Origin: Deinococcales bacterium
Lineage (GTDB): Bacteria > Deinococcota > Deinococci > Deinococcales > JAAFIG01
DNA length: 64,000 nucleotides
Assembly: GCA_025359505.1 (NCBI GenBank)
Contig: JANYHH010000101.1
Location: 62,001 to 126,000 of the forward strand
Direction: 5' to 3'
Shown here: piece by piece, positions 1 to 64,000 of the stretch
How the letters are laid out: every line of letters begins with the position of its first letter
Position numbering within the stretch: the stretch's first letter is position 1
Notes under the pieces: model-generated
Told to the model about the DNA's origin: nothing
Database searches by the model: none
Seen by the model: only the letters and a program-made list of their open reading frames with translations
Made by a program: the position numbers and the translations under genes

Positions 1-2
1 TC

Positions 3-575
3 TTCACGTACTCCGACCGTGCGGAAATCAAATTGCTCGATGGGCGCTTTGGGTTGTACCTGACGGACGGCGCACTCAACGCGTACTTGAAGCGTGACGA
101 CGACGCGCAAGCCTTGGACGCCGCTGGCATTCGCAATATTTTTGAAGAGCGCGGCAAACCACCAAAAAGCAAAGCCAAACCGACTCGAGGGGCAGCGAAG
201 AGTCCCGCGAAGGCTGGCGCGAAAACTGCTGGCAAAACCGCTGCTAAGAAACCCGCCTCGAGCAGCAAGTCTCCCAGCACCGCCGCGAAAGGCGTCAAAG
301 CCGCTAAGCCCAAAGGCGCACCGAAGAAGCCTTCGCGCACCGCCAAAGCCGCCAAGCCAGCGGGCGAGAAACCCGCGTGGTCAGCCCTCGAGCCATTCAC
401 CGCTGGCTTCGACCCGACCACCGCACAGCTTTTGAAACTCGTCAACGGCGACCGCATTTCAATGGCGACGGCCGCGCAGCAACTGCGGATCACACCAGAA
501 GACGCGATGACCCGCTACCGCTCGAGCAACTTTAAGCTCTACAACCTGTATCGCAACGCGAAACCCAGCGTTTGA
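3..575 (+). CDS. topA: DNA topoisomerase I, C-terminal part (5' end outside window)
   Basis: The reading frame is open from base 3 with no start, so the window opens inside the gene; 190 residues are visible. The first 25 residues match a C-terminal topoisomerase I repeat (core GRFGLYLTDG followed by NAYLKR), which binds DNA in type IA enzymes. A region of about 75 residues follows that is rich in Lys, Ala, Pro and Ser with AKxA and KPA patterns, like histone H1 tails. A compact last segment of about 60 residues ends NLYRNAKPSV and has no function I can name. The catalytic domains lie upstream and cannot be checked. The family relaxes negative supercoils. The assignment rests mainly on the repeat motif. 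Confidence 0.8.
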   Translation, partial: FTYSDRAEIKLLDGRFGLYLTDGALNAYLKRDDDAQALDAAGIRNIFEERGKPPKSKAKPTRGAAKSPAKAGAKTAGKTAAKKPASSSKSPSTAAKGVKAAKPKGAPKKPSRTAKAAKPAGEKPAWSALEPFTAGFDPTTAQLLKLVNGDRISMATAAQQLRITPEDAMTRYRSSNFKLYNLYRNAKPSV

Positions 576-660
576 GTGCGGGTTTGAGCGCAGGCTGTCA
601 CATGGCTCGAGTCTGAACATTCGTTGGATGTGTGAGTAACAAACCGCATGGGAACAAACC

Positions 661-692
661 GTAGGGGCGAGCGGCCGCTCGCCCTCGCAACC
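661..692. repeat. GTAGGGGCGA-type hairpin repeat, copy 1
   Basis: GTAGGGGCGA is followed by a perfect 16-base palindrome, GCGAGCGGCCGCTCGC at 667-682, and then a CCTCGCAACC tail. It sits in the 353-base gap 576-928 between topA and the permease genes. Apart from scattered CTCGAG sites I see nothing else in that gap. Confidence 0.8.
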
Positions 693-928
693 GCTTCACG
701 CTGAACGAACCAAGCGGCGCATCAGCGCGGCTCGAGCACTGTCGCCACGAGTTTGCGGATCAACTCAGCGTGACTGGGCGGCAATCCAACCTCGAGCCGC
801 ACTCACGGCAACTCGAGGGCGCTGAGATTTTTCGCGTCACCACTTGTCATTGTTCCCGCCTGAAACGGTAGACTCCGCAGCGTGTTCCGACAATTCACAC
901 GAGGTTATCAGACCGCGCAAGGCATCCG

Positions 929-1867
929 GTGGTGAGCGCTCCCGATCTGCACAGCGGGCAACGCTCGAGGGTCTGGCGCGACACGCTGATTGCCTACGCG
1001 TTCATGGCTCCCGTGCTGCTGGTCAAGCTGCTGTACACGTTCTGGCCGATCGTCTTTGGGGTGTTTCTGGCCTTCACCGAGTACAACGTCATCAGCGCTC
1101 CGAAGTGGATTGGCTTACGCAACTTTGAAGAGCTGTTCGGCATCGGCAGCTTCGCTGCTCGCGGCCCCGACCGCGACTTCTGGTTCGGCATGACCAACAG
1201 CCTCAAATACGTGCTGGTCGTGCCAATCATTCAATTCCTCAGCATCGGACTGGCGATGCTCGTCAACCGCCAACTGCCGGGCATCGCACTGTTTCGCACC
1301 GCGTTCTACGTGCCGGTCGTCACCAGCTTCGCGGTCGTGGGTCTGATCTGGGGCTGGATGTACAACCAGTACGGCCCGGTCAATTACATTTTGACGACGC
1401 TCGGACTGATGAACGCCAGCAATCCCACAGGCTTACTCAACAACCCCGCGACCGCGCTGCCAGCCGTGATGTTCGTGACGATCTGGAAAGGGCTGGGCTA
1501 TTACATGGTGCTGTACTTGGCGGGCTTGCAATCGATTGACCGCACGCTCGAGGAAGCGGCCGTGATCGACGGTGCGAACCGCTGGGAGGTTTTCTGGTTC
1601 ATCACCCTGCCCGGACTGCGCCCGACGATTCTGGTCTGTAGTTTGCTGTCCACGGTCAGCGCGATCAAGGTCTTTGAAGAGATCTACGTGATGACGCAAG
1701 GCGGCCCGGCGGGCAGCACCTACACCGCGCTCTTTTTCATCTACAACAAGTCCTTTGGGGATTTCAGATTCGGCTACGGCGCGGCTGCGGGCTTGGTGGT
1801 CGCAGCGGTCAGCTTGGTGCTCGGCATCATCAATTTCAGACTGACCCGAGGAGGACGAGCATCATGA
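929..1867 (+). CDS. Carbohydrate ABC transporter permease (MalF/UgpA type)
   Basis: This is a 312-residue inner-membrane permease of the binding-protein-dependent sugar transporter family, with about six hydrophobic segments. The cytoplasmic EAA loop is clear (EEAAVIDGANRWEVFWFITLPG, read in two parts around residues 205-226) and is where the ATPase docks. The start is GTG at 929 or at 932; no strong ribosome site separates them. The last codons overlap the next permease by four bases (ATGA), so the two are translationally coupled and probably form a heterodimer. No substrate-binding protein and no ATPase lie next to them, so the substrate cannot be predicted; a shared MsmX-type ATPase is common for this family. 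Confidence 0.9.
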   Translation: MVSAPDLHSGQRSRVWRDTLIAYAFMAPVLLVKLLYTFWPIVFGVFLAFTEYNVISAPKWIGLRNFEELFGIGSFAARGPDRDFWFGMTNSLKYVLVVPIIQFLSIGLAMLVNRQLPGIALFRTAFYVPVVTSFAVVGLIWGWMYNQYGPVNYILTTLGLMNASNPTGLLNNPATALPAVMFVTIWKGLGYYMVLYLAGLQSIDRTLEEAAVIDGANRWEVFWFITLPGLRPTILVCSLLSTVSAIKVFEEIYVMTQGGPAGSTYTALFFIYNKSFGDFRFGYGAAAGLVVAAVSLVLGIINFRLTRGGRAS

Positions 1868-2760
1868 CTCGAGATCAAACCAATTCGCAACTCGAGCAAG
1901 CGTGGGCACTGCGTCAAAAACGCCGCTCGAGCCAGCTCATCACCAACGTGATCGTTTACGTCGTGCTGTTTGTGATTGCTTTCATCAGCATTTACCCGTT
2001 CCTGTGGACGGTACGCAGCAGCTTCACCACATCCGGCGGCCTGTTTGAATTCCCGCCGGGCTTGTGGCCGACATCACCCGGCATTCGCAATTACGTGGAA
2101 GTCTTCCAGCTCGTGCCGATTGCGCGGCAAATTCTCAACAGCGTCATCATCTGCTTTTTCGGCGTGGGGGGAAGCGTGCTGCTGGCAACCTTGGGCGCGT
2201 ATCCGCTAGCCAAAATGAATTTTCCGGGGCGCGACGCGATCTTCTATGCGATCCTCGCCACGCTGATCTTACCCAACGAAGCGGGGCTGATCGTCAACTT
2301 CATCACCACCAAAACGCTGGGCTTGCTGCAAAGCGATGCGGGCAAATACGTGGCCATCATCCTGCCCGCGCTCGGTAACGTCGCCGGGCTGTTCTTGATG
2401 CGCCAAGCGTACCTGAGCATCCCGCTCGAGTTGCTCGAGGCGGCCCGCATGGACGGCGCATCGGAACTGACCATCTGGCGGCGCATCATGCTGCCGCTGA
2501 CCTTGCCGACGATTGCGGCGTTCAGCATCCTGCAATTCGTCGCGTTCTGGAACACGTTCCTGTGGCCAATCATCGTGATCGGCAGCGACCGCCAGCTCTA
2601 CCCACTCAGCGCGGGCTTGCTGGATTTGAGCGGCTCGTTCGCCAGCAACACCAGAGCTGTCAGCGCGGGCGCGGTGATCGCCACGATTCCGATCATCATC
2701 GTCTTTCTATTCTTCCAGCGCTACTTCATGCGCGGACTCGAGGGTGCGGTCAAGGGTTGA
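1864..2760 (+). CDS. Carbohydrate ABC transporter permease (MalG/UgpE type)
   Basis: This 298-residue second permease of the pair starts at ATG 1864 inside the stop of the preceding gene. A charged N-terminus of about 25 residues precedes six predicted membrane segments. The EAA motif (EAARMDGASELTIWRRI, about residues 195-211) marks the ATPase contact loop and is typical of MalG-like subunits. With its partner it should form the channel of a sugar or glycerol-phosphate importer. The gene is followed by a repeat element and then an unrelated oxidoreductase, so the operon seems to contain only the two permeases. Confidence 0.9.
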   Translation: MTRDQTNSQLEQAWALRQKRRSSQLITNVIVYVVLFVIAFISIYPFLWTVRSSFTTSGGLFEFPPGLWPTSPGIRNYVEVFQLVPIARQILNSVIICFFGVGGSVLLATLGAYPLAKMNFPGRDAIFYAILATLILPNEAGLIVNFITTKTLGLLQSDAGKYVAIILPALGNVAGLFLMRQAYLSIPLELLEAARMDGASELTIWRRIMLPLTLPTIAAFSILQFVAFWNTFLWPIIVIGSDRQLYPLSAGLLDLSGSFASNTRAVSAGAVIATIPIIIVFLFFQRYFMRGLEGAVKG

Positions 2761-2810
2761 GGAGTCGCCGCTCGAGCCTCGAGAATTCATCAGATATGTG
2801 AGTGACGACC

Positions 2811-2883
2811 CGTAGGGGCAAGACAAAAGCAAGCCCTCGCAACCACGCAGCCCCACATCAGAAGCGTAAAGCATCTCGAGCCT
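2811..2883. repeat. GTAGGGGC-type repeat, copy 2, with extended flank
   Basis: GTAGGGGCAAGACAAAAGC is followed by a CCCTCGCAACCACGCAGCCCC tail, read in two parts, running to ATCTCGAGCC. The downstream flank resembles the flank of the element near 49761-49831, so the mobile or amplified unit is longer than the hairpin alone. Confidence 0.6.
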
Positions 2884-2935
2884 CCCGATTCAAGCAGCGC
2901 TCGAGACCCGTGTTGCTCGAGGTAAACTTCTGCCT

Positions 2936-3700: not shown

Positions 3701-3740
3701 GCGGTCACGGCGCGAGGCTCGAGATTTACTGCCTGACCTG

Positions 3741-3767
3741 ACGGGCGAGGCAAGCCTCTCCCCTACG
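3741..3767. repeat. GTAGGGG-type hairpin repeat, copy 3 (reverse orientation)
   Basis: The stretch ACGGGCGAGGC..GCCTCTCCCCTACG reads as the GTAGGGG-type element on the minus strand. It lies between the SDR gene and the aldo/keto reductase gene. Confidence 0.7.
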
Positions 3768-3808
3768 AAAAAACGACGCCTGACTGCTCAGGAGAAAGGG
3801 GCACGGGA

Positions 3809-4798: not shown

Positions 4799-4960
4799 GG
4801 ATGGTGTTCGGTGGTGTTTCGTGCGCGGACTCGAGGGTGCGTTTGAAAACTGAAACTCGAGAAAAGTTGAACGGTAAGATAATCGGTCGCCTGTCGTGGT
4901 GAACGAACGAAGAGGCAAGCCTTTACAGCACTTGTGTTGTTTCGAGCGTTCACAATCAAT

Positions 4961-16299: not shown

Positions 16300-16310
16300 T
16301 TAGAGCCGCG

Positions 16311-16346
16311 AATCTCGAGCCAGAGAATCTCGAGCCAGAGAATCTC
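16311..16346. repeat. 15-base tandem repeat containing CTCGAG
   Basis: The unit AATCTCGAGCCAGAG occurs at 16311-16325 and 16326-16340, followed by a partial AATCTC. The period of 15 equals that of the tandem repeat near 14181, though the unit differs. It lies just beyond the 3' end of the DUF1501 gene. Confidence 0.85.
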
Positions 16347-16379: not shown

Positions 16380-17576
16380 CTACCGCAACAAGTACCCAAG
16401 GGCCGCGAAGCTCTCCTTTCCGAAGACCTCGCGGCTGGGTACGCCCAGCCAGCCGTCGAGCGCTTCGCTGTACACGCCGCGAAAATCGGTGGTGAAGCGC
16501 GGATCGCCGTCGTCCAGCTTCTCTAAGTCCGGCGCAGCGCCGTGCAGACCGCCTTTGACGCCCTTGCCGATGGCGAACATCACGCCCGCTTTGCCGTGAT
16601 CCGTGCCCGCGCTGGCGTTCTCCGTCAAGCGCCGCCCGAACTCCGAAAACCCCAGCATCAGCACGTCGTCGGCTCTGCCCTGCGCGGTCAGATCGCTGCG
16701 AAACGCGCTCACGGCGCTCGAGAGCGTCTCGAGCAGCTTTGGGTGATCCTCGGGCTGGCCAGCGTGGGTGTCGAAGCCGCCTAAGCTCACGTAGTAAACG
16801 CGCAGACCGACATCGGCAGCGATCAACCGGGCGACATCGCGCAGGTTGCTGGCAAAGCCGCTTTTGGGGTACGCCGCGCCCGCTTTGTACTTGGCGAGGC
16901 TCTTTTGCACTCGAGCCGTGTTGCCGAGCGTCTGCACGAGGTTTTTACGCAGCAACTCGGTTTTGCCCTTGTCGCTGTAGCCTTCGACAGGTTGCGCTAA
17001 AAGCTCGCGGTACGCGGCGTCCAGCTTAGGCTCTAATTTCAGTTGGAAGCGGTCCACGCTGTCGATGCTCGGCAGGATCACTTCGCTGCTGCGGAGCGCC
17101 AGCGGCGTGGTGCTGCCGAAGTTCGTCGCGCAGAACGGGTCGCCCCAGCGGTCAGCCAACTTGCCAATCCAGCCTTCAGTCTCGCGTGCCAGCGGGTCGG
17201 CGCTGTGCCAGATCGCCATGCTTTCAAAATGGCTGCGGTTCGGGTTCGGGTAGCCCACGCCTTGCACCACCGCCAGTTCGCCACTGTCCCACAAGCCCAT
17301 CCACGGTTTCAGCGCTGGGTGAAACCCGAAGTCGCCGCTCAGCGGCAACACCTCTTTTTTAGAAACCGCGATCACTGGCCGCGCCGCGTAATACGCGCCG
17401 TTGCTGTACGGCACGAGCGTGTTCAAGCCGTCATTGCCGCCCGAGAGCTGCAAAACCACCAGAATCTTGCCGCGCTCACTCCCGGCGGCTCGAGCGGTGC
17501 GCTCCAAGAAGCCCGGCATCCCCGCACTGGCTGCGAGCGTGACAAACGATGTCTTGAGGAAATCCCTGCGCTTCAT
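16380..17576 (-). CDS. DUF1501 domain-containing exported protein, first copy
   Basis: This 398-residue protein has a twin-arginine leader ([19 protein letters not shown]) at its start, so it is probably folded in the cytoplasm and exported by Tat. The body carries the DUF1501 pattern: [14 protein letters not shown] near residue 46, [16 protein letters not shown], and [21 protein letters not shown], which resembles metal-binding sulfatase-like segments. I take the ATG at 17576, because the ten codons before it would displace the Tat motif. It is encoded directly downstream of a DUF1800 gene, the usual arrangement. A close paralogous pair lies at 44828-47634. Function is unknown for the family. 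Confidence 0.92.
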
Positions 17577-17694
17577 GTGACTCCTTATTGAGATCGGCTC
17601 GAGCAACCTCGAGATTGGCGCTTCGTTGACTGAATAGACACTCGAGGTTTCGCCTGTGCGCTCTGCGCTCTGCCCTCGGCGCTCTGCATCCCGC

Positions 17695-19089
17695 TCACGC
17701 CAAGTGATACTGCGGGCTGGCCAGCACCAGATACGCCAGTCCCCTCGCTACTTCGGGCGTGTTCTTGCCGTCGGCGTAGAGTTGCATGGTTCTGAGCAGC
17801 GCCCCATCGGGTTGCTCGCCCAGATACGTTTTTCCCAGCAGCTCTATCGTCTCACTCAGACTCGAGCCTATCGGCAGGGTCAACACGGTCGGCGGGGCGG
17901 CTTGATCTTTTTGCAGTTGCGCGGGCAGCTTACGCTGCGTGACCGCGCCAGCGAGGTTGAGGCGGTTGAGTAGCGTCGTGTCCGAAACCCAGTCGCTGCC
18001 ACCGTCCCAGCCTTTGACGTTTGGTGGTTGAAACAAGGTCTGTCCCATCACGCGCATCGCATTGAAGATTCCCAAACTCTGCTCCGGGGCGAGGCGGGAT
18101 TGAGAGGAGCGCAGCATGCCAATCGCGTACTCGGCTGGGGATTTAATCAGCGCGAAGCGGTTGGCTTTGGCGTAGAAAACCTCGGATTTGAAGATGGCTC
18201 TGAGCAGCACCGCGATCTCGCCGCCGCTCGAGTTCCACAGCGCGGTCAGTTCTGCCAGATCGCTGCTGGGGATCGTGTCGCTGACGAAAAACTTCCAGAG
18301 CTTGGTGATGATGAACTTTGGTGTGGATGGGTGCGCGGTGACGATCCTGACGACATCCTCGCCGCCGAAGTTGCCGCTTGCGCCCAGATACGTCTTCGCG
18401 CCGTCGTCAAAGTTTTTTTTGTTGAACACAAAAGTCGGGTTAGTGAAACGCCCATTCTCTTCGGGTTTGTTGGGGTTGCCCGTCTGAAACGTCCAACCCG
18501 TGAAGGCCCTCGCCGATTCTTGTACATCGCGCTCCGTGTAGCCGCCGTGAACGCCGAGCGTGAAGAGTTCCATCAACTCGCGGGCGAAATTCTCGTTCGG
18601 TTTGCCTTTGACGTTGCGGTTGTTGTCCAAGTAACGCAGCATCGCCGGGTTTTTAGCCATCTCGAGCACGAGGTCTGAGAAGCGCCCCAAGCCTTTTTGC
18701 CGGAAGAGTTCGTTCTGCTGCTGCATCGCAAACGCGTTTTCGACTTTTTGCGCTTCCGTGGCGAAATGCCCGTGCCAGAACAGCGCCAGTTTCTCTTTGA
18801 GGGGTTGCGAGGTGTGCGCGAGGCGATGCACCCACCAGCCGCTCAGCCCCGCGTTGGCGTCAATGTTGGCTTTGGAGCCATTCTGCCGCTCCAGAAACAA
18901 GGCGTTCAAATCAAACGGGTTGTCCGCCGTGTTGTCGTCCGTGGACGCGTACAGCAAACGCTCCACCGCCAGACTGGGCCCGAGTCTCTGCAAGGCTTCG
19001 ACTTCACTGACTCCGCCAGCGAAACCGGCCCGCCGCAGCAGGTGAGCGGCGTCCGAGAACGTGTATTGGCGCGGTGCGTATTCCCTCAC
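17695..19089 (-). CDS. DUF1800 domain-containing protein, first copy
   Basis: This 464-residue protein starts at GTG 19089, with GGAGG five to six bases upstream. The opening [23 protein letters not shown] is the family's N-terminal signature. Further conserved stretches are [37 protein letters not shown], and [15 protein letters not shown]. The end [15 protein letters not shown] is shared almost exactly with the second copy at 44828-46246. No classical signal peptide is evident. DUF1800 and DUF1501 genes are typically paired and the proteins probably act together at the cell surface; the biochemical role is not established. Confidence 0.93.
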
Positions 19090-24265: not shown

Positions 24266-24375
24266 AAATGGTCGTCGACAGCTCAAACCCTCGAGAATCG
24301 GATCTTGTCTACCGCTCGAGTCTTCATTCTGCTCTGCTCGTAATCAAGCAGTTGGGGGGCTATACTTCGGGGCTG

Positions 24376-26598
24376 ATGTCAGACGCGACCCCGAACATTC
24401 TGGATGGACTGAACCCCTCGCAACTCGCCGCTGCGCTGCATTTGCACGGCCCCGCGCTGGTCGTGGCGGGCGCGGGCAGCGGCAAAACCGCGACGGTCGT
24501 GCGCCGCATCGGGCATCTGATGGAAGCGCACGGCGTCTTTCCGAACGAAATCTTCGCCGTGACGTTCACCAACAAAGCCGCTGCCGAGATGAAGGAGCGC
24601 GTGGTCAAGCTGGTCGGCCCGCAAGCCGAGCAAATCTGGGTCACGACCTTCCACAGCGCCGGCGTGCGAATTTTAAGAGCCTACGGCGAGTTCGTCGGAC
24701 TTAAGCACGGCTTCGTGATTTACGACGACGGCGATCAGCTCGACATCATCAAGGGTGCTCTCGAGGGGATTCCCAGCGCGGGCGAGTACAACCCGCGTTA
24801 CCTGCGCGGCATCATCGACCGCGCCAAGTCAAACCTTTGGACGCCCGAAGACCTTGCGAGGGAAGGCGACGAGTGGATGTCGGGGATGCCGAGGGATGTC
24901 GCCGTCGAAGGCTACCGCCGTTACCAGAGCGCGATGCGGCGCGTCAACGCGATTGACTTCGGGGATTTGCTGACGCTGACCGTGCAACTGTTCAGGGAAC
25001 ACGCGCAGATCCTCGAGAAAGTACAGTCTAGGGCGCTGTTCGTGCATGTCGACGAGTATCAGGACACGAACAAAGCGCAGTACGAGATGACGCGGTTACT
25101 GTCGGAGAAATACGGCAATCTGCTCGTGGTCGGCGATCCAGACCAAAGTATTTACCGCTTTCGCGGTGCGGACATTCAGAACATTCTGGACTTTCAAAAG
25201 GACTACCCGGAAGCCGCCGTCTACAAACTCGAGGAGAATTACCGCAGCAACGCTCGAGTCTTGTCTGTAGCGAACAAATTGATCGAGCAGAATGCGGAGC
25301 GCCTCGAGAAAATCTTGCGTCCCGTCAAGCCCGATGGCGAGCCGGTGCGCCTGTACCGCGCCCCGGATCACCGCGCCGAAGCGGAGTTCGTGTCATCCCG
25401 GATCGAGCATTTGTTTGGGCAGGGCGTCGCGTACAGCCGCATGGCGATCCTGTACCGCACCAACGCGCAATCGCGGGTGCTCGAGGAGCGGTTTTTGCGG
25501 TCGCAGATTCCGGTGCGTTTGATCGGCGGAACCAGTTTCTACGAGCGCCAAGAAATCAAAGACATGCTTTCATACGCTCGAGTTGCCGTGAACACCTTAG
25601 ACGATTTGGCATTGAAACGCGCCCTGAAGCGCCCGCGTCGCGGCGTGGGCGACGCCAGCATTCTCAAGCTCGAGACGTGGGCGACCGCGAATACGACCAG
25701 CTTGCTGACCGCGTTCTTGCAAGCCGACGAGATCCTCGAGCGCGGCGGGGACAAGGCAGCCGCCTTCGGCAAGTTGCTGCTCGAGCTGAGCGAGTACGCG
25801 ACAGAGCACTCGGCTGAGGATTTCTTCAAATTGGTGATCGATGTCAGCGGCTACCGCGAAATGCTCAACAGTGAAATGAAAACCGAGAAGCACGAAACCG
25901 AGCAGCGCCTCGAGAATATTAGCGAGTTGGTCAACGCCGCCGCCGATTGGGACAAGGAAAACCACGGCACGATCCAAGAGTTTCTGGACGACAGCGCACT
26001 GCTGAGCAGCGTGGACGACCGCCGCAACAAGCACAACAACAAAGACACTCCACCCGACGCGGTGACGATGATGACGATGCACAACGCCAAGGGCTTGGAA
26101 TTTGAGAACGTCTTCGTGGTCGGACTCGAGGAAGGTTTACTGCCGCACAAGTCGTCGATCCCGGAGCCGGGCGGCATCGAAGAGGAGCGGCGGCTGCTGT
26201 ACGTCGGGATTACTCGAGCGATGGAGCGGCTGTGGCTCACTTCAGCCGAATCGCGCCAAGTGTTCGGCAAGACCATGCCCAGCGAGGACTCGAGGTTCAT
26301 TAAAGACATCCCGTCTGAACTGCTCGAACCGGTCAATCTGTTCAACGAACCCTACGGCAGCCGCATTGATCCGGGCAGGGTCGCGCCCGCACTGATGAAG
26401 CAACTCGAGGCGGCGGGCGGCGCGGTCACGCTCGTCAAAGGCGGTGAGCGCGTGTCACACCCGAAATTCGGCGCGGGCAAGGTGCTGGCCACGACCGGCA
26501 GTGGCGACCGGCTCGAGGCGATGATCGCGTTTGAAGGCGCGGCGGGCACGAAGAAGTTACTGGTGAAATACGCGAATCTAACGTTTACCTCGAGTTGA
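24376..26598 (+). CDS. uvrD: ATP-dependent DNA helicase UvrD/PcrA
   Basis: This 740-residue superfamily 1A helicase has the Q-motif LNPSQLAAA, Walker A AGAGSGKTAT (residues 31-40), motif Ia TFTNKAAAEMKERV, Walker B in HVDEYQDTNKAQ, motif III VVGDPDQSIYRFRGAD, motif IV LEENYRS, motif V MTMHNAKGLEFENVFV, and motif VI RRLLYVGITRAMERLWL. The C-terminal tail includes a Tudor-like segment (GERVSHPKFGAGKVLAT) typical of PcrA/UvrD. It unwinds DNA 3' to 5' in excision and mismatch repair and clears RecA or stalled polymerases. The ATG at 24376 gives the family's start; 36 upstream codons are not similar. Monocistronic. Confidence 0.95.
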   Translation: MSDATPNILDGLNPSQLAAALHLHGPALVVAGAGSGKTATVVRRIGHLMEAHGVFPNEIFAVTFTNKAAAEMKERVVKLVGPQAEQIWVTTFHSAGVRILRAYGEFVGLKHGFVIYDDGDQLDIIKGALEGIPSAGEYNPRYLRGIIDRAKSNLWTPEDLAREGDEWMSGMPRDVAVEGYRRYQSAMRRVNAIDFGDLLTLTVQLFREHAQILEKVQSRALFVHVDEYQDTNKAQYEMTRLLSEKYGNLLVVGDPDQSIYRFRGADIQNILDFQKDYPEAAVYKLEENYRSNARVLSVANKLIEQNAERLEKILRPVKPDGEPVRLYRAPDHRAEAEFVSSRIEHLFGQGVAYSRMAILYRTNAQSRVLEERFLRSQIPVRLIGGTSFYERQEIKDMLSYARVAVNTLDDLALKRALKRPRRGVGDASILKLETWATANTTSLLTAFLQADEILERGGDKAAAFGKLLLELSEYATEHSAEDFFKLVIDVSGYREMLNSEMKTEKHETEQRLENISELVNAAADWDKENHGTIQEFLDDSALLSSVDDRRNKHNNKDTPPDAVTMMTMHNAKGLEFENVFVVGLEEGLLPHKSSIPEPGGIEEERRLLYVGITRAMERLWLTSAESRQVFGKTMPSEDSRFIKDIPSELLEPVNLFNEPYGSRIDPGRVAPALMKQLEAAGGAVTLVKGGERVSHPKFGAGKVLATTGSGDRLEAMIAFEGAAGTKKLLVKYANLTFTSS

Positions 26599-35138: not shown

Positions 35139-35170
35139 AAAGCTCGAGGGTTCGCGCCCTCGAGCTTTTT
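35139..35170 (+). terminator. Intrinsic terminator whose stem is built on CTCGAG
   Basis: AAAGCTCGAGGG and CCCTCGAGCTTTTT pair perfectly around a TTCGCG loop, 31 bases after the beta-barrel stop. Both arms contain the over-represented hexamer. Confidence 0.9.
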
Positions 35171-44827: not shown

Positions 44828-46246
44828 ATGAAACCGTATGCACCCGCCAGTTACACGTTTGAAGACGCCGCGCACCTGCTCAGGCGCATGGGCTTCGGTG
44901 GCACGCCCAGCCAAATCGAGGCCCTGCGCCGCATGGGGCCAGCTTTAGCAGTCGAGACGCTGATGCGCTTTGACGACAATGACGGCACGCGTGACAATCC
45001 GCACGATCTCGAGCAGCGCTTCAAGGAAATTGTGGATGGTGGCCGGCCGCCACAGCAGGCGGTCGCCGGAACCGTCCCGATGGCCCAAGCGTGGTGGATG
45101 CACAAACTTGTCAACACCACGCAACCGTTTAAAGAAAAGCTAACGATTTTCTGGCACGGGCATTTCGCCAGTGGCTTGGACAAGGTACGCAACGGCTTCA
45201 TGCTGCGCGATCAAAACGAACTCTTCAGGCGCATGGGCTTGGGTAAATTTGAAGCCTTGACGCTGGCAGTCGCCAAAAACCCCGCGATGCTGGTGTACTT
45301 GGACAACGACGAAAACACCAAAGGCCACCCAAACGAGAACTTCGCCCGCGAATTGATGGAACTCTTCACGATGGGCGTGCACGGCGGCTATACCGAGCGT
45401 GACGTGCAGGAATCGGCGCGGGCGTTCACCGGCTGGAGCTTTCTAAAAAAGCGCGGCGATCTCGAGTCATTGAAAAACCCGCAGTTCGTCTTCAGCGCGA
45501 AATTACACGATGCCGAGGGCAAAACTTTTCTGGGTAAAAGCGGCAATTTCGCGGGTGAAGACATCATCCGCGCCGTGACCACGCACCCCAGCACCGCGAC
45601 GTTCATCACCACGAAACTCTGGCGCTTCTTCGTGTCCGAAGACCTGCCCGAGAGCACCTCGAGCGAACTGGCCGCGCTGTTCACGCGCAGCGGCGGCGAC
45701 CTGCGCGAGGTGCTGCGCGTGATCTTCACCAGCAGCGATTTCTACGCTCCTCAGAACCGCAACAGCCTGATCAAATCCCCTTTGGAGTACGTGATCGGTG
45801 CATTGCGCTCGAGCCAAACGGTGCTTTCCAAGAACCACGAGTACGCACTGTCTGGCGTATTGGCCGCGATGGCGCAGATTCCTTTTTACCCACCGAACGT
45901 CAAAGGCTGGGACGGCGGGCTGGACTGGGTTGCCGACACGACGCTGCTCAACCGCCTGCAATTCATCGGAGCGCTCAGCAGCAGCAAATTACCAACCGGG
46001 TACGGCAATGGCAACGGCAAAGCCAACAACACGAGCGACAAAGCCGCGCCCGTGACCTCGAGCTGGCCCGTTGGTCAAAGCTTGGACGCGACTTTGGAGC
46101 TGATCGGCAACACGTACCTCGGGAAGAAACCATCCGGCAGCTTGGAGCGGGCGCTGCGCGTCTTCGCCAAAAACCGCAACACGCCAGAGGTCGCTCGCGG
46201 ACTGGCGTATTTGGTGATGGTCAGCCCGCAGTATCACCTCGCCTGA
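44828..46246 (+). CDS. DUF1800 domain-containing protein, second copy
   Basis: This 472-residue paralogue of the gene at 17695-19089 has the same opening ([22 protein letters not shown]), the same [20 protein letters not shown] and [17 protein letters not shown] stretches, and an almost identical end (GLAYLVMVSPQYHLA). A small insertion rich in Gly, Asn and Lys (YGNGNGKANNTSDKAA) lies near residue 400, absent from the first copy. The RBS AAAGCGGAGGAAACC lies before ATG 44828. A 48-codon Cys-rich ORF and a DUF1501 gene follow on the same strand. Function is unknown. Confidence 0.93.
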   Translation: MKPYAPASYTFEDAAHLLRRMGFGGTPSQIEALRRMGPALAVETLMRFDDNDGTRDNPHDLEQRFKEIVDGGRPPQQAVAGTVPMAQAWWMHKLVNTTQPFKEKLTIFWHGHFASGLDKVRNGFMLRDQNELFRRMGLGKFEALTLAVAKNPAMLVYLDNDENTKGHPNENFARELMELFTMGVHGGYTERDVQESARAFTGWSFLKKRGDLESLKNPQFVFSAKLHDAEGKTFLGKSGNFAGEDIIRAVTTHPSTATFITTKLWRFFVSEDLPESTSSELAALFTRSGGDLREVLRVIFTSSDFYAPQNRNSLIKSPLEYVIGALRSSQTVLSKNHEYALSGVLAAMAQIPFYPPNVKGWDGGLDWVADTTLLNRLQFIGALSSSKLPTGYGNGNGKANNTSDKAAPVTSSWPVGQSLDATLELIGNTYLGKKPSGSLERALRVFAKNRNTPEVARGLAYLVMVSPQYHLA

Positions 46247-46300
46247 AAGCGTAGGGGAAAGGCAAAAGGCGAAGGGAAAACCTTCTTCTCGAGGAGACCC

Positions 46301-46447
46301 ATGAAACACGATTGCACACGCTGTCAGCGGCTCGAGTGCCCGTTCAAGAAACGCAGTGTTTACCTCGAGTTTCGCCTCAACCTGACCTTCACCACACGCC
46401 TCGAGTTCGCCTTTGCGCCACAGCCTCGAGCCACGCTCAGCTTTTGA
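46301..46447 (+). CDS. 48-residue Cys-rich small protein candidate
   Basis: An ATG at 46301 preceded by GAGGAG (46291-46296) at ideal distance opens 48 codons ending at 46447. The peptide starts MKHDCTRCQRLECPFKK, with Cys at 5, 8 and 13, a CxxCx4C pattern that could bind a metal, and continues with an aromatic and Arg-rich end. It sits between the DUF1800 and DUF1501 genes, 54 bases after one and 14 before the other. The first DUF1800/DUF1501 pair has no equivalent. The strong ribosome site supports translation; the family is unknown. Confidence 0.5.
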   Translation: MKHDCTRCQRLECPFKKRSVYLEFRLNLTFTTRLEFAFAPQPRATLSF

Positions 46448-46461
46448 CAAGGAGCTAAACA

Positions 46462-47634
46462 ATGAACCGTAGAGATTTCGTGAAAACATCGTTCCTGACG
46501 CTCGCGGCAGGCGCGGGCATGCCGGGCTTTTTGGGACGCACGGCGAACGCCGCGATTGGCAAAGGCAAGATTCTGGTCGTCGTGCAGTTATCTGGCGGTA
46601 ACGACGCGCTGAACACGCTGATTCCGTTCACCAACGGCGCGTACTACAACGCCCGTCCGACGCTGGCGGTCGGCAAGAAGGACGTGCTGAACCTCAACGA
46701 CAGCGTGGGCTTGAACCCAGCCCTGAAGCCGATGATGTCGCTGTGGGACAACGGCGAGCTGGCACTGGTGCAGGGCGTGGGCTATCCCAACCCCAACCGC
46801 AGCCATTTTGAGAGCATGGCGATCTGGCACACCGGCGACCCGAAGGCGCGTGAAACCGAAGGCTGGATCGGCAAAATCGCCGAGAAATACGGCGATCCGT
46901 TCTGCGCGACCAACATCGGTGGCACGACGCCGCTGGCACTGCGCGGCTCGGACATCATCCTGCCCAGCATCGCCAGCGTCGACCGCTTCCAGTTCAAGAT
47001 CAACCCCGAAGCGCAAACCGCTTTTGATACGATCCTCGAGACACCATTGACGGGCAGGGCCGAAACGATGCGCGGCGCGACGCGGCAGATGCTCATTGAC
47101 ATCGACCGGGTGCAAAAAGGCATCGGCAAGTACAAGGCCGGAGCCGCGTATCCAGAAGAGAAATTCGCGGTGAGTCTGCGCGAGATCGCCAGACTGATCG
47201 CCGCCGACGTGGGGCAGCGCGTGTTCTACACCAGCCTCGGTAGTTTCGACACGCACGCCGGGCAGCCCGTGGATCACCCAGAACTGCTGGGCGCGTTATC
47301 CAGCGGCTTGAGCGCCTTTCGTGCGGATTTGGAGAAGCAGGGTCGCAGCGAGGATGTGGTCGTGATTGGCTTTAGTGAATTCGGGCGGCGCTTAGCCGAG
47401 AACGCCAGCGCGGGCACGGATCACGGTAAGGCGGGTTTGATGTTCGCACTCGGCAAGGGCGTCAGAGGCGGGCTGTACGGCGCGTACCCGGATCTCGAGA
47501 AGCTGGACGACGGCGACCCGGTGATGACCACCGATTTCAGGCAGGTCTACGCCACGGCGTTGGACAAATGGTTGAACATTCCCAGCCGCGATATTCTGGG
47601 CGCGAGTTTCGCGCCGATGAATTTTCTGAAGTAA
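46462..47634 (+). CDS. DUF1501 domain-containing exported protein, second copy
   Basis: This 390-residue paralogue of 16380-17576 has a twin-arginine leader [20 protein letters not shown], followed by [30 protein letters not shown] and [21 protein letters not shown], all matched in the first copy. Tat export is likely. The RBS AAGGAG lies before ATG 46462. Downstream is a terminator at 47737. Two DUF1800/DUF1501 pairs in 64 kb point to duplication, with the order DUF1800 then DUF1501 kept in both. Confidence 0.93.
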
Positions 47635-47736: not shown

Positions 47737-47767
47737 AGCCCCTCGAGCGTTCAGTCTCGAGGGGTTT
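47737..47767 (+). terminator. Intrinsic terminator built on CTCGAG, after the second DUF1501 gene
   Basis: AGCCCCTCGAG and CTCGAGGGGTTTT pair around a CGTTCAGT loop about 100 bases after the DUF1501 stop. The rest of the 404-base gap 47635-48038 holds scattered CTCGAG sites and presumably the promoter of the next gene, which I cannot identify. Confidence 0.8.
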
Positions 47768-48038
47768 TGTCTTGATCTTCCATTTGGTCGTAGTCACTGA
47801 GCCGCAATCACGCTCACAATCACCTTCGCACGACGTTCATAACCCAAAGCTGTATGTGTTCATCGCTGCCGTGAGGCACGGCTCCCATGCCTCGAGTTCG
47901 CACAGCCGCTCGAGTTCACGGGTTCTGCCCATAACCTGCGCGGGGTCTCTACGCGCCGCTCGCATACTGCTGTTCATCGAGGGCAGTGAACCTCGACCCA
48001 AGGAAATAGAACGCAAAGCGTTCAGAAAGCAGGACATT

Positions 48039-51900: not shown

Positions 51901-53343
51901 ATGAATCTGAAACTGTTACTGGCTGGCGCGTTGACCCTCGTGTCCGGGGCGGCATTCGCGCAATCGAACCCTCGAGTCACCCCGCAAGCGGTGATCGTCA
52001 ATCCCGTGGAAACAGCGCTGAAAGTCAATGTCGCCATTGACAAGGGCGGCAACAACCCGCTCTACATTGAGGGCGAGAAGCAGCGCATCAGCGTCAACGT
52101 CAACCAAGACGCCTATGTCTACGTCTTCAACATTCAGGCGAACGGCGATGTCGCGGTGCTGCTCCCCAACGGCTTCTCGGGCGGTACGCCGTTCCTGCGT
52201 GCCGGTGAAACCCGCACGTTTCCCACGCCGAACGCTGGGTACGAGCTGACCATCGGCGCTCCGTATGGGCAAGAGAAAATTTTGGCACTAGCCAGCAAAA
52301 CGCAACTCAACCTTGGGCAAATCATCCCGCAAATCGGCAACAACCAGATCGTCAACGCGACCGTGCAAGGTCAGGACGGCTTAGCCCGTGCTCTAGCTGT
52401 GGTCGTCACGCCGCTGCCCGCGCAGGGCTGGGTCACGGATGTCGCTGACTTTCAGACCCGCTCGAGGGTCGTCGCTCCAGCAACGGGGACGCTGGTCGTC
52501 AATGTCAACCCGAACGGCGCGAACGTGTCCTTGGACGGCGTGCTGATCGGTCGCGGCGATACGCGCCGCGTCGTTCCTGCCGGTCAGTACACGGTGCGCG
52601 TGTCCTTGGGCGGCTTCCAAGACTTCCAGCAAGCCATCACGGTGCAGGGCGGTCAGACCGTCACAGTCAACGCAAATTTGAACGCCGTCGCCGTCAACGG
52701 CACACTGCAAGTCAACGTCAGCCCGAACGGTGCGAACGTCTCCATTGACGGCGTACTGATCGGTCGCGGTGACACCACTCGCGTCCTGCCCGCCGGTCAG
52801 TACACCTTGCGCGTCAGCGCTGCCGGTTATCAAGACTTCCAGCAAGCCGTCACGATCCGCAATGGTCAGACGACGCAAGTCAATGCGAACTTGCAGCAAA
52901 TTCAAGTCAACGGCACGTTGCAGGTCTTCGCTCCCGAAGGCTCGAGCGTGTCCTTGGACGGTGTGCTGATCGGTCGCGGTAACACCAGCCGCGTCGTGCC
53001 CGCCGGTCAGTACACGGTGCGCGTGTCGTTGAATGGCTTCCAAGACTTCCAACAAGTGGTCACGGTGCAAAACGGTCAGACCGTGACCGTGCAAGCCAAC
53101 CTGCAACCCGTTGCGAGAGAAGGCACGCTGATCGTTCGCAGCAACATCGCGGGCGCAAGGGTGTTCATCAACGGCAACGAGGTCGGTGTCATCAACTCCA
53201 ACGGCAGCTTGACCGTACAGGGCCTGCCGATCGGTTCGCACGAACTGGTGTTGATCGCCCCGGGTTTCCGCGCTTCGGTGCAGAACTTCAGCATCAACGG
53301 CGGTCAGACCACGACCGTCACCGCGAACCTCAACCGACTCTAA
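51901..53343 (+). CDS. Exported DUF4384/PEGA-repeat protein
   Basis: This 480-residue protein has a signal peptide ending at SGAAFAQ (about residue 20). Residues about 55-135 form a DUF4384-like domain (QRISVNVNQDAYVYVFNIQA, LPNGFSGG). Four PEGA repeats follow, beginning at residues 196, 267, 338 and 408, with a core SLDGVLIGRGDTRRVVPAGQY and QDFQQAITVQGGQTVTVNAN (read in parts). The first three are nearly identical, also in DNA (bases 52486-53121). PEGA domains usually sit on the outside and bind surface structures. The RBS AAAGGAG lies before ATG 51901. A strong terminator follows. Confidence 0.88.
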   Translation: MNLKLLLAGALTLVSGAAFAQSNPRVTPQAVIVNPVETALKVNVAIDKGGNNPLYIEGEKQRISVNVNQDAYVYVFNIQANGDVAVLLPNGFSGGTPFLRAGETRTFPTPNAGYELTIGAPYGQEKILALASKTQLNLGQIIPQIGNNQIVNATVQGQDGLARALAVVVTPLPAQGWVTDVADFQTRSRVVAPATGTLVVNVNPNGANVSLDGVLIGRGDTRRVVPAGQYTVRVSLGGFQDFQQAITVQGGQTVTVNANLNAVAVNGTLQVNVSPNGANVSIDGVLIGRGDTTRVLPAGQYTLRVSAAGYQDFQQAVTIRNGQTTQVNANLQQIQVNGTLQVFAPEGSSVSLDGVLIGRGNTSRVVPAGQYTVRVSLNGFQDFQQVVTVQNGQTVTVQANLQPVAREGTLIVRSNIAGARVFINGNEVGVINSNGSLTVQGLPIGSHELVLIAPGFRASVQNFSINGGQTTTVTANLNRL

Positions 53344-53552: not shown

Positions 53553-56500
53553 GTGCACTCTGTGGACGGTGATTTACAGCAGGTCGCGGGGCGCTTGACG
53601 GGCTTGACCTTGAAGCGTTCTGGCTTTGCGCTGGGCGTTTACGGTCCGCCCGGCATCGGCAAGACCCACGCGGTGCTGGCGCTCTTGCGCGGCGCACAAT
53701 GCCGCTCACTCACGGTTCACGCGACCCAGCCGCTTGCGGGAACCTTGCTCCGACTGCCGCGCCCGAAGAAGCTCAGCGCGTGGCTCGAGCGGGGCTTGGA
53801 GCGTTTGCGAAGCGGTGAAACGCTGGCATCTGAAGCGCTGCTGCAAACCTTAGCGGGCGTGCTGAGCGCCAACGCACCGTTTATTCTGCACGTTGAAGAC
53901 CTGCACGAAGCCAGCTCAGAACGATCAGAGTTCTGGACGCAACTGGCTTTGATGATCCCACGTCTGCGTGGCGTGGCGTTGATCGTCACCACTCGCACCC
54001 AGCCACCCGCACCGCTCGAGGCGATGGGACTCTCGCCGCTGACCCGCACTGGCTCAGACGCATTGCTCGAGGCTGAGGCGGGCGCGACGCTGCCCCGCGA
54101 AGCCCTCGAGTGGATTTTTGAACACGCCATTGGCAACCCGCTTTTTACCCTCGAGTTTTTTAGGTTTCTGGCCCGCCAAGGCGCATTGTGGAACGACGGG
54201 CATCGCTGGCGCTGGCGCACCCCGCAACGTGGCGCGATGCCAGTGACGATTGAGGCGCTGATCGAGCAAATACTGAACGAAGCGGGCAGCACACCTACCC
54301 TCGAGCGAGCGTTGCAGGCGCGGGCGGTCTTGGGGATGGCCGCGACACCAGCACTGTGGGCGAGCGTGGCTGAACTGACCCCGCAAACCCTCGAGCTGGT
54401 CAGCGCTGACCTCGAGCGGCTGGGCGTGTGTACGAGCGGTGACTTCGCCCACCCGCTGTACTGCGAGGTCGCGCTGGGTCAGGTGAGTCTCGAGGGGCGG
54501 CGCTCGTTGGCGCGACGGGCGATTAAATGCCTAAAGGGCGACCCTCGAGCGGCGGCGGGCTTCGTTCAAAACGCTGGGCTGAAGGCTGACGAAGCCCTCG
54601 AGTGGTTTCGGCGGGCGGCACTGGCGGCGCAACGGGCGGGCGACGAGATTCAAGCGGCGCAGTTTACGTCTCAAGCCGTGCAGTACGTGCATGGTGACGA
54701 ACGGGCAAGTCTCGCGCTCAGCGCAGCTCGAGCCTTACGAAACGTTGATGCGCTCCAAGCCGTCAAACTGCTCGAGCAGGCGCTTTTCGTGCAACCCGAT
54801 CTGCCCGATGCGATTTGCTTGCTGATCGAGCTGTCCATCAGCCTGCGGCGCGATGCGGAAGTCGAGCCTTTACTATTGCGGCTCGAGGGGTTGTACGAGC
54901 GCGGTCTGCGCTGGGTCGCGCAGTGTGTCAAAGTCCAATGCGCTTTCAAGCGATACGCTGAAGTGTTGGCGCTGTGGCAAGCCAACCCAAATCTGACTGA
55001 CCAAAGCCAGTTCAACGTCGTGCCAGAGATTTGCAGGGCGCTGTCCTCGTGCGGCCGCACAGCCGAGGCTCGAGCGATTGCCGAAGCAGGCTTAGCGCAG
55101 CTTAGTCTGGATGCGAACGAGCGCGGGCGGACGCTCGAGGCGATTGCCGAAACTTGTTTCTATCAGGGCAAGTATTTGGAAGCCGCCGATTGGTACGCGC
55201 AGTCTCACGCGCTGCTGGAACGCAGCGGCAACCTCAAAGCGATTGCGTCCATCCTGTACAACCGTGCGATGTGCCTGCGTTACGCCGGGGATTGGTCGCA
55301 ATCCACTGCCGATATTCAAACCAGCATCGCGCTAGAGGAGCAAATCGGCAACATCAGCGGCGCAATCAAGTCGAAAATCAGCCTCGGCGTGCAATGGCAC
55401 TCGCAGGGGCAGTATGAGCGAGCCGAAGAGCTGTATTTGGAATGTCTACATGAGCTGAGTTTTCTGGCGCTCTCGAGCGATGTTGTGACCTGCGAGATCA
55501 ACCTCAACGCCCTGCATCTGGACTGGCACTCGAGCCACAGCGCTTTGCTGGCCGTCAAGTATGGCTACGCGGCGCTGAAACACGCGCAGAGGCTTGGTGA
55601 TCTGGCTGGCGTGGCCAGCGCGTTGGCCCACGCGAGTTTCGCGGAAAGTATTCAAGGCAACGGTCAGACCGCGTTGCAACTGGCGGACGACGCGCTCGAG
55701 CGAGCCAGCGAGATTGGCTTTGCGAACCTGATTCGCAAGGCTGGGGATGCGCGGCGCAGGGCGCTCGAGGCGCTCGGCGAGCCGATGGCTGCGTTGGAGA
55801 TTCTGCGAACGCTGATGAGTGAAGCCGAAACCAACGGTAACGACGCGCTGATCCAGCATTACGGCTTGGAGATTGACCGTCACACCAACGATCTCACAAG
55901 TGCTCGGCAGCGCCTCGAGTGGTACAAAGCGCGAGGCAGGCTGCACGGCGTTCATAAGGCGTTGCGCTACTTCCCAGAACTCGCTGTTCAACCCGCGCCG
56001 CTCGAGTCATCACCCGCCCGACTCGAGGTGCTGGGCACAATGCAAACCAGTCTCGAGGGTACAGCCTCACCCGTGCGCGGACGCAAACGCCAAGAGTTGC
56101 TGGCGCTGCTCTTAGAGGCGCGAATCTCTGGGCGCGGTGAGGTGGCTAAGCTCGAGCTGCTGGACGCGCTCTACCCGGACGCCGATGAGCTTCAAGCCAG
56201 CGCGGGCTTGCGCGACGTGATCTATCAACTCCGCTCGAGCCTCGGGGACGGCGCGGTGATGACGACCACCCACGGTTACGCGCTGGGGAATCTCGGCAGC
56301 GACGTTGAGGATTTCCTGAAATCTGGCGACACGCGGTTGTGGCGCGGCACGTACCTGCAAGGGCTGATGCTTGCTGGGTCGGACACCGTGTTCGAGAGTA
56401 TGTACTTAGCCCTGCGTTCTCGAGCTGAGACATTACTTCAAACCGATCCCGCAGAAGCGGCTCGAGTCGGGCGTTTGCTGTGCGACGCTGACCCTTACGA

Positions 56501-56663
56501 TCTTGAGGCGGTGCAGTTGACGCTTTCTGGCTTGCGGGTTGGGGGCAATCACCGCAGCCTCTCGAGGGTCTACGAACAAGCCCGAACGCGGTTCTTGGAG
56601 ATCGGTGAAACGCTGCCCAACGCTTGGCAAGATTTTCTGATGCCGGTCAGCGCGAGCGACTGA
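53553..56663 (+). CDS. Large NTPase-TPR-winged helix transcriptional activator (SARP-like, reversed order)
   Basis: This 1036-residue protein starts at GTG 53553 (or GTG 53562). Walker A is GPPGIGKT at residues 31-38 and Walker B is in FILHVEDLHE near residue 118. Residues about 350-800 are helical TPR-like repeats (EAADWYAQSHALLERSGN, YERAEELYLECLHELS). The last part, beginning ARLEVLGTMQTSLEG near 810, matches a winged-helix/BTAD-like output domain (RGRKRQELLALLLEAR, LELLDALYPDADELQ, LWRGTYLQGLML). Actinobacterial SARP proteins have the DNA-binding part first; here it is last. It probably senses a signal through NTPase and TPR and activates nearby genes. Targets are unknown. Confidence 0.82.
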   Translation: MHSVDGDLQQVAGRLTGLTLKRSGFALGVYGPPGIGKTHAVLALLRGAQCRSLTVHATQPLAGTLLRLPRPKKLSAWLERGLERLRSGETLASEALLQTLAGVLSANAPFILHVEDLHEASSERSEFWTQLALMIPRLRGVALIVTTRTQPPAPLEAMGLSPLTRTGSDALLEAEAGATLPREALEWIFEHAIGNPLFTLEFFRFLARQGALWNDGHRWRWRTPQRGAMPVTIEALIEQILNEAGSTPTLERALQARAVLGMAATPALWASVAELTPQTLELVSADLERLGVCTSGDFAHPLYCEVALGQVSLEGRRSLARRAIKCLKGDPRAAAGFVQNAGLKADEALEWFRRAALAAQRAGDEIQAAQFTSQAVQYVHGDERASLALSAARALRNVDALQAVKLLEQALFVQPDLPDAICLLIELSISLRRDAEVEPLLLRLEGLYERGLRWVAQCVKVQCAFKRYAEVLALWQANPNLTDQSQFNVVPEICRALSSCGRTAEARAIAEAGLAQLSLDANERGRTLEAIAETCFYQGKYLEAADWYAQSHALLERSGNLKAIASILYNRAMCLRYAGDWSQSTADIQTSIALEEQIGNISGAIKSKISLGVQWHSQGQYERAEELYLECLHELSFLALSSDVVTCEINLNALHLDWHSSHSALLAVKYGYAALKHAQRLGDLAGVASALAHASFAESIQGNGQTALQLADDALERASEIGFANLIRKAGDARRRALEALGEPMAALEILRTLMSEAETNGNDALIQHYGLEIDRHTNDLTSARQRLEWYKARGRLHGVHKALRYFPELAVQPAPLESSPARLEVLGTMQTSLEGTASPVRGRKRQELLALLLEARISGRGEVAKLELLDALYPDADELQASAGLRDVIYQLRSSLGDGAVMTTTHGYALGNLGSDVEDFLKSGDTRLWRGTYLQGLMLAGSDTVFESMYLALRSRAETLLQTDPAEAARVGRLLCDADPYDLEAVQLTLSGLRVGGNHRSLSRVYEQARTRFLEIGETLPNAWQDFLMPVSASD

Positions 56664-60802: not shown

Positions 60803-60921
60803 GAACTGTGTCAACTACTCGAGCCAAACGAAAACCATCAACCAACGCTCAGAACAGCTTTGAAGCGCGTAACTCGAGCGCGTCGTGGATCCAAAGCCCT
60901 TGCCACGAAGGAGTCCCGCCA

Positions 60922-62736: not shown

Positions 62737-62919
62737 ACTGGGACACCGGAAGCGACCCACGATAGCTGCAAACCCTTCAGTTTGAGCGCCCCTCAACCAA
62801 CCCGTCTAGCTCGAGGTTGAATTCATTTAAGCTCGAGCCAATTTTTAAGCGACGTAGCATGAAGTGAATCGGGATCGTTAACGCCCGCCGAAGAGTTTTT
62901 AGCTGGTTGGGAGAATCCT

Positions 62920-63435
62920 ATGAGTCTGAAACGAGTCGTCACCGCGCTGTTGATCGTCCTCGGCATGACCTTCGCCTGCTCGAGTCCAGCCAGTGCGGGC
63001 AGTGTGTACTTCGGCATCAACTTCGAGCTGATCGGCGGGCCACCGGATTTTCAGTTCGACAAGGCGTTTCGCCTTGCGCCACTGCCGATTCCGGGCGTGC
63101 AGATCGGGTACGACTTTGGCGATGGCGCAGAGACCTTCGGCGCTCGAGTGAGTTTTAATTTCTTCATCATCGGTCAGATCGCGCTGGACGGCTACTACCG
63201 CTTTGCATTGGATGCGGGCGGCTCGAATGCTTACGTCGGCGCGGGTGCGGAGTATCAGTTTTTCGCCTTTGATACGGTCGGGGGAGCGCCGGGGCTGCAC
63301 GCGCTGGGCGGACTCGAGTGGCGACTGACGCGAAATTTTGGGTTGTTCGTTGAAGCCACGCCGGGCGTATTGCTACAACTGCCCGCGCTGGCGTTCACGG
63401 TCATTGTTCGCAGTGGACTTTTGCTGCGTTTCTAA
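62920..63435 (+). CDS. Small beta-barrel outer-membrane-type protein
   Basis: This 171-residue protein has a signal peptide (SLKRVVTALLIVLGMTFAC, then SSPASAG; a lipobox-like FACS is possible but the ASA site is a better cleavage point). The mature part alternates polar and aromatic residues (GSVYFGINFELIGG, GARVSFNFFIIGQIALDG, LDAGGSNAYVGAGAEYQF) and ends GLLLRF with a terminal Phe. It resembles the barrel at 34563-35108 in size and ending. No strong ribosome site is visible, with GGGAGAA at eight bases. The 183-base gap before it shows nothing definite. Confidence 0.75.
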   Translation: MSLKRVVTALLIVLGMTFACSSPASAGSVYFGINFELIGGPPDFQFDKAFRLAPLPIPGVQIGYDFGDGAETFGARVSFNFFIIGQIALDGYYRFALDAGGSNAYVGAGAEYQFFAFDTVGGAPGLHALGGLEWRLTRNFGLFVEATPGVLLQLPALAFTVIVRSGLLLRF

Positions 63436-63497
63436 GCGGCTCGAGCAATTCCACTTGACGAGTTTTTGTCGCTCGAGCATGGAGAAAGAAGGTAGGC

Positions 63498-64000
63498 ATG
63501 AAACGACGTTGGATCATCGTCGCTGCGTTGCTCGCGGCCGTCGCACTGGCGCAGGCTTCGATCAAACTGACCGTCAACGGGCAGCCGTCGGCGCTGCCAG
63601 CCATCACCGTGAACGGCGCAACATACATCCCACTCTCAGCCCTCGAGCGGGCGGGTGCGAAAACCGTGCGTACCTCGAGCGGCTTGACACTGACCCTACC
63701 CGGCGGCTCGAGCGCAAGCCCCAGCCAGACGGCGGGCGGCGCGAATCAGCGTGTGTCGCTCGAGGGTTGCATCGGAGAGACGCTGTTCAACGGCATCTGG
63801 CGCTTGACGGTCAAAGGCATCAAAGCGATCAACCGTTACAACGGTCAGCAACTCGGCTACAGCGTCAACCTCGAGTGGCGCAACGGCGCGAAGGTCAGCG
63901 CAGACGCGCTCAACACGGGCGTCAAGAACCTCAATTTGGTGCTCACCGATGGGACAGTATTGCAGACCGACGACGCGCAGAGTTTGACCAATAAGAAATT
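63498..64000 (+). CDS. Exported protein with copper amine oxidase N-like (stalk) domain, 3' end outside window
   Basis: The ATG at 63498 is preceded by AAGAAGGTAGG and opens a frame that stays open to the window end, 167 codons. The signal peptide reads MKRRWIIVAALLAAVALAQA. Next comes IKLTVNGQPSALPAITVNG, TYIPLSALERAGAKTVRTSS, the pattern of copper amine oxidase N-terminal/stalk domains found in many exported proteins. A Ser/Ala linker and a second beta-rich domain follow (SLEGCIGETLFNGIWRLTVK, LGYSVNLEWRNGA). It continues the run of exported proteins from 57.8 kb. The role is unknown. Confidence 0.78.
   Translation, partial: MKRRWIIVAALLAAVALAQASIKLTVNGQPSALPAITVNGATYIPLSALERAGAKTVRTSSGLTLTLPGGSSASPSQTAGGANQRVSLEGCIGETLFNGIWRLTVKGIKAINRYNGQQLGYSVNLEWRNGAKVSADALNTGVKNLNLVLTDGTVLQTDDAQSLTNKK

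Follow-up and report, generated by a model that had tools for sequence, protein, structure and literature searches.

Highly iterated palindromes (HIPs) are known from cyanobacteria, where they occur at 500–2500 copies per Mb, in one case at a higher density, and where cognate methyltransferases are present (Elhai, 2015; PMC4390886). For HIP1 (GCGATCGC), a model of methyl-directed repair has been put forward which saturates near one copy per 1000 bases, and among cyanobacteria polyploidy tends to go with the presence of HIP1 and monoploidy with its absence (Elhai, 2015; PMC4390886). Here, we read the palindrome CTCGAG as a highly iterated palindrome, i.e., a HIP-like element, carried by a lineage of the Deinococcota. 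We know of no denser case resembling cyanobacterial HIP1, and searches of the open literature turned up no account of CTCGAG being enriched in this phylum.

With HIP1, CTCGAG shares that a palindrome is enriched by at least an order of magnitude throughout the genome, in genes as well as in spacers, and with HIPs in general that the enrichment spans a clade, is lost sporadically, and comes with variants of the word (in this case CCTCGAGG, in cyanobacteria the alternative HIPs). The resemblance to HIP1 on which the original prediction had remarked is thereby borne out, including its lineage-specific character. Unlike HIP1, the element has another word in another phylum and reaches 6400 instead of approximately 500–2500 copies per Mb, and its six-base core lacks the outer-base deviations which HIP1 prefers, as the observed/expected (O/E) ratios of its one-off versions follow the distinction of transition and transversion and not the position. 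The word of HIP1 itself is absent from the window (zero copies). Unlike the cyanobacterial HIPs, CTCGAG has a marked effect on proteins, and the five Pfam families searched contained no methyltransferase common to its carriers in the family. It further resembles the uptake sequences of Haemophilus (USS) and Neisseria (DUS), short words which accumulated genome-wide by a drive-like process, and very short patch repair (Vsr/Dcm), a sequence-specific mismatch repair altering word frequencies. Vsr, however, is confined to T:G mismatches in a single context, whereas all one-off types of CTCGAG are affected here.

The window, i.e., the whole stretch of 64,000 bases that was analyzed (contig JANYHH010000101.1, positions 62,001–126,000, assembly GCA_025359505.1, Deinococcales bacterium, an uncultured relative of Thermus), contains 429 copies of CTCGAG between positions 1 and 64000, which are strandless due to the palindrome and amount to 2–13 per kb. 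Expected were 21 copies from base composition, 28 from an order 1, 37 from an order 2 and 102 from an order 3 model, the last value being inflated by CTCGAG itself. The entire assembly (G000; 4,230,927 bases in 127 contigs) includes 27,118 copies, corresponding to 6.4 per kb or approximately one per 156 bases, versus nine copies of the letter-reversed control GAGCTC. Three relatives (G001, G002, and G003), which together with G000 constitute the family f1, contain 26,600–28,200 copies per genome. The enrichment is real, genome-wide and very strong, and goes beyond composition. The massive over-representation claimed in the original prediction is even larger than had been stated, extends beyond the window, and persists against a Markov background from which the word was masked. 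Nine copies in the first kilobase (1–1000) and 13 in the densest one (54001–55000, within the reading frame 53553–56663) had been counted correctly. The predicted 30–40-fold excess, in turn, applies to the densest kilobases only; naive models yield approximately 12–20-fold for the window as a whole, and a masked background yields approximately 39-fold for the spacers of G000.

A family scan of the larger reading frames of the window depicts an ordinary chromosome (PcrA, a ClpC-like ATPase, trigger factor, transporters and two tRNAs), and no DNA methyltransferase or restriction-system nuclease was found among them. A DUF1800/DUF1501 gene pair occurs twice, in opposite orientation (16383–19089 and 44828–47634), and a 213-bp tandem repeat encoding PEGA domains (52498–53083) is part of a 480-residue protein. 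Both terminators that had been said to carry CTCGAG are real hairpins: in the one at 35139–35170 (plus strand; AAAGCTCGAGGGTTCGCGCCCTCGAGCTTTTT) two CTCGAG copies form the arms and a T run comes after them, and a second terminator-like hairpin at 47739–47768 (plus strand) likewise combines CTCGAG arms with a T run. For the tandem repeats the same statement holds for two of the four arrays, for example a 15-bp repeat at 16310–16346 (GAATCTCGAGCCAGA) with two copies, and fails for the other two.

That the word appears in all three frames and in non-coding DNA could be confirmed as well. The genes of the window contain 301 copies (179, 36, and 86 by reading frame) versus 53 under a codon-use null (44, 1.3, and 7), and the density in non-coding DNA is approximately twice the coding density. 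The strength of the bias was estimated from genes called in 386 kb of G000, including the window, and from samples of the relatives, with CTCGAG being masked in the codon and dinucleotide backgrounds. The spacers of G000 exhibited 667 copies versus 17 expected (approximately 39-fold), while words with one, two, and three mismatches reached 1.07, 0.94, and 1.06 of expectation. Against an order 2 masked background the O/E in spacers was 43 for G000, 44 for G001, 49 for G002, and 50 for G003, and over the analyses the spacer excess ranged from 39- to 72-fold. The preference of CTCGAG over its one-off versions, taken over all frames and the spacers, was 33–66 in G000, 35–67 in G002, 37–67 in G003, and 30–46 in G001, where 30 stems from the smallest sample. 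In the sister genus g11 (G012/G016) it was 41–140 in small samples, and in the controls G004 and Thermus-like G007 the bias was approximately 1 in well-sampled classes. As the GC content of G000–G003 spans 45–60% and the bias is similar throughout, it is a bias at the DNA level for which reading frame, location in spacer or gene, and GC content are irrelevant.

One could argue that such numbers merely reflect composition, codon use, a protein motif, or an assembly or linker artefact, as CTCGAG is the XhoI site of linkers and Leu-Glu a common dipeptide. The 301 versus 53 copies in window genes and the 39–72-fold spacer excess speak against this, as do the agreement of four assemblies and the location of copies in frame within conserved genes. 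This reading, whose probability we consider negligible, is already refuted, and the original statement that neither codon use nor one protein motif explains the word stands.

The word is dense enough to have altered proteins. In genes of G000, 68% of the Leu-Glu pairs are written CTCGAG, and for 91% of those at most one change away this is the case. Leu-Glu dipeptides reach 2.37 (G000), 2.68 (G001), 2.22 (G002), and 2.02 (G003) times their expectation, and 1.05–1.19 times in G004 and Thermus. Leu-Asp, Ile-Glu, and Glu-Leu are near 1 in G000–G003, with a depletion of Val-Glu and Met-Glu in most cases. The change is estimated at approximately 900 Leu-Glu sites per 106,000 residues. An example of this is the PcrA/UvrD helicase gene of the window (24268–26598, plus strand), which contains 19 copies; its orthologues contain 17 in G002, 15 in G001, and none in G004, with positions being shared only in part.

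The individual sites are independent of each other. Counts per interval of 500 bases to 1 kb are near Poisson, and the fraction of Leu-Glu pairs written CTCGAG is flat (0.69–0.78) at nearest-neighbour distances of 30–400 bases and falls only below 30 bp. In spacers the pair correlation is approximately 1 down to 6 bp, the distance of adjoining copies, but for some scatter in small samples. Genes of G000–G003 avoid copies less than approximately 20 bases apart, a deficit that is absent in spacers and that probably originates from RNA hairpins between two copies and not from a protein footprint. Functions requiring a single site in each stretch, a large protein footprint, and the suggested role in segregation are all disfavoured by the independent placement and by the absence of saturation. 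A coverage or spacing function was rejected on the same grounds.

The bias is clade-wide, being strongest in f1 and one sister genus, weaker in Meiothermus- and Truepera-like genomes, and near 1 in another sister genus. All four members of f1 contain 5.9–6.4 copies per kb, genus g11 of family f2 6.2–7.7, g8 3.6, and g4 0.3; Meiothermus-like genomes contain 1.4–3.1 and Thermus-like ones approximately 0.8. Expressed as bias, f1 and g11 are high, g8, g13, and g23 intermediate, and g4 shows none. Loss in relatives had been named in the original prediction as support for a lineage-specific system. Among single genomes, G008, G070, G075, and G077 show an intermediate bias and G081, G006, and G009 a weak one. 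A plasmid of Deinococcus deserti showed no enrichment (four copies in 50 kb). Viral contigs with clustered CTCGAG were uninformative, as they are mostly GC-rich and GAGCTC is equally frequent in many of them.

The word itself varies as well. In spacers of G008 the base following CTCGAG is G in 75% of cases, which gives CCTCGAGG, and 34 of the 35 TCGA sites of Thermus-like G007 lie within this 8-mer. The same applies to 183 of 219 TCGA sites (84%) in 200 kb of pTT27 from T. thermophilus HB8 and to 51 of 59 in 50 kb of pTT27 from strain HB27, versus none of 29 in 50 kb of phage P23-45. In the sample of G000 this form is nearly forbidden (one copy, 154 expected; none in the window). The avoidance of TCGA in Thermus is consistent with TaqI-type restriction, which leaves the exception of the 8-mer unaccounted for. 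TaqI is described from Thermus (PMC5587805).

XhoI and PaeR7I recognize the identical word CTCGAG. Unlike restriction sites, which are avoided, the word is enriched 16–54-fold here (order 1 expectation), whereas other palindromes of these genomes do exhibit avoidance of the restriction type. The 386-kb sample of G000 contains no CTGCAG (154 expected), GAGCTC (156), GGCGCC (291), or TGCGCA (298), one GCGCGC (880) and one CCGCGG (293), and GGYRCC is almost absent; in G001–G003, GGCC occurs at approximately 1% of expectation. These word counts suggest a large number of strong restriction systems.

A dedicated methylation system, as considered in the original prediction, found no support in the enzyme families that were searched. 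In terms of the HIP1 model, the site would be marked by a methyltransferase for CTCGAG or TCGA, and strand-directed repair would preserve the mutations that create it. TCGA methyltransferases are carried by Thermus, which fits with this idea, and the model is a published one with cognate methyltransferases for cyanobacterial HIPs (PMC4390886). CTCGAG methylation also occurs naturally, for example in Halorubrum (PMC8112702). Nevertheless, a search with five Pfam families (PF01555, PF00145, PF02384, PF07669, and PF02086) yielded no methyltransferase ortholog group common to all of G000–G003; methyltransferase genes are many per genome, differ between genomes, and have a sequence specificity that is not readable from these data. 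An apparently solitary N6-adenine methyltransferase (alignment A1, approximately 550 residues) is conserved in 24 genomes, of which 14 are Meiothermus-like and 10 Truepera-like; in G005 and G062 its neighbour is a V-type ATPase-like reading frame. It was rejected as the cause, as it is absent from all f1 and f2 genomes and does not track CTCGAG in g13, where genomes lacking it (G037, G025, G089, and G015) contain 2.2–2.4 copies per kb, equal to carriers. Plasmid homologues of this enzyme were checked for an adjacent CTCGAG nuclease, and their neighbours had no Pfam match. Moreover, the density is six-fold above the saturation of the model (one per 1000 nt), without any sign of saturation. Taken at their weight, these points make methylation-directed repair an improbable explanation.

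Searches for nucleases also gave no support for an XhoI-type enzyme or Vsr as the cause. The XhoI family (PF04555) was found in none of 14 genomes at E ≤ 1, in a search in which control genomes matched weakly and E. coli fell below the cut-off, and Vsr (PF03852) was absent from G000–G003 above the cut-off and found only in G008. There, a cytosine methyltransferase lies beside the Vsr-type endonuclease (G008:C11:83962–85231) in a CTCGAG-poor stretch (0.25 per kb), which is possibly a recent arrival.

Biased transformation could also spread a word, with CTCGAG being a DNA uptake or self-recognition sequence. Genera related to this lineage are naturally competent, biased uptake is known to drive the spread of motifs, and the phage P23-45 mentioned above is devoid of the Thermus form. 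Known DNA uptake sequences are, however, longer, non-palindromic and directional, and occur approximately once per kb, unlike a 6-bp palindrome at 6.4 per kb that does not saturate with density. A word occurring once per 156 bp would discriminate kilobase fragments poorly, and we regard an origin by uptake as very improbable.

The main rival of a repair or conversion process is weak genome-wide selection, in which CTCGAG would be the binding site of an abundant chromosomal protein (a nucleoid, topology, or segregation factor) and each copy would confer a tiny advantage, with a scaled coefficient of approximately ln 45 = 3.8. Additive selection would also yield a uniform bias across contexts, the extreme avoidance of other palindromes implies that these genomes respond to very small effects, and a clade-wide bias suits a conserved chromosomal protein. 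In spacers, however, no footprint exclusion is seen even at 6–15 bp (pooled) and no diminishing return with local density, and the benefit would have to exceed the protein cost of the approximately 900 altered Leu-Glu sites. Selection at equilibrium also predicts equal O/E for one-off transitions and transversions. In the spacers of G000–G003 one-off transitions reached 1.60 and transversions 0.77 of expectation, and the transition excess is present at each of the three distinguishable positions of the word. Of the other hexamers (mean 1.01, sd 0.21), 0.5% attain the resulting ratio of 2.08, which ranks first among all palindromes. In a stationary mutation model with 4096 states, 1.00/1.00 was obtained for selection at equilibrium, for a mutational cold spot, and for a higher rate of gain, and a conversion independent of mutation type, at 15–20 times the unit rate, gave an O/E of 33–62 with 1.37–1.78/0.66–0.83. 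As the asymmetry arises in the model only with an irreversible restoring step, it favours a restoring process over equilibrium selection, although background miscalibration or recent relaxation could be a partial cause. Turnover of CTCGAG between G002 and G003 is not above the neutral rate (kappa approximately 0.2 versus 0.09–0.29 for ordinary codons; 150 sites, synonymous sites nearly saturated), which counts weakly against a restoring process. All in all, weak selection appears rather unlikely to us.

The repair system that had been named among the possible causes remains the best-fitting idea, by virtue of the mutation model and the one-off asymmetry. We tentatively favour, with somewhat less than even confidence, a maintenance of CTCGAG by motif-biased mismatch repair or gene conversion acting as the restoring process. 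Such a process would act on each six-base site separately and at the DNA level, and would turn one-mismatch sites (back) into CTCGAG, resulting in a 45-fold preference. A strand or allele with CTCGAG might meet a one-off version in a heteroduplex, which would form either among the sister chromosomes of polyploid cells or with DNA entering from outside, and a sequence-recognizing activity would resolve the heteroduplex towards CTCGAG. We infer conversion or repair as the restoring step, help from polyploidy, and one conserved enzyme for the CTCGAG core and its Thermus form. T. thermophilus HB27 is polyploid (PMC6469415). Against this reading it has to be held that pure conversion needs a CTCGAG template, so that old one-off sites should stay, whereas the fitted model converts all of them.

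In its widest form, the proposal is that of a site-autonomous motif drive which would irreversibly convert near-matches to CTCGAG, rewrite hundreds of protein positions, extend across Deinococcota with variants (CTCGAG and its 8-mer form), and be of the same kind as the HIP1 process in polyploid cyanobacteria; we consider it rather unlikely in this generality. HIP1 has long been unexplained and, as far as the literature was searched, a cyanobacterial curiosity. A denser case in a second phylum provides an independent comparison and excludes explanations specific to cyanobacteria, and the constant bias, the independence of sites and the asymmetry of transitions and transversions are quantitative constraints by which selection and a repair-like drive can be told apart. 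With the Thermus form, finally, the question can be taken up in a laboratory organism that is tractable and naturally transformable.
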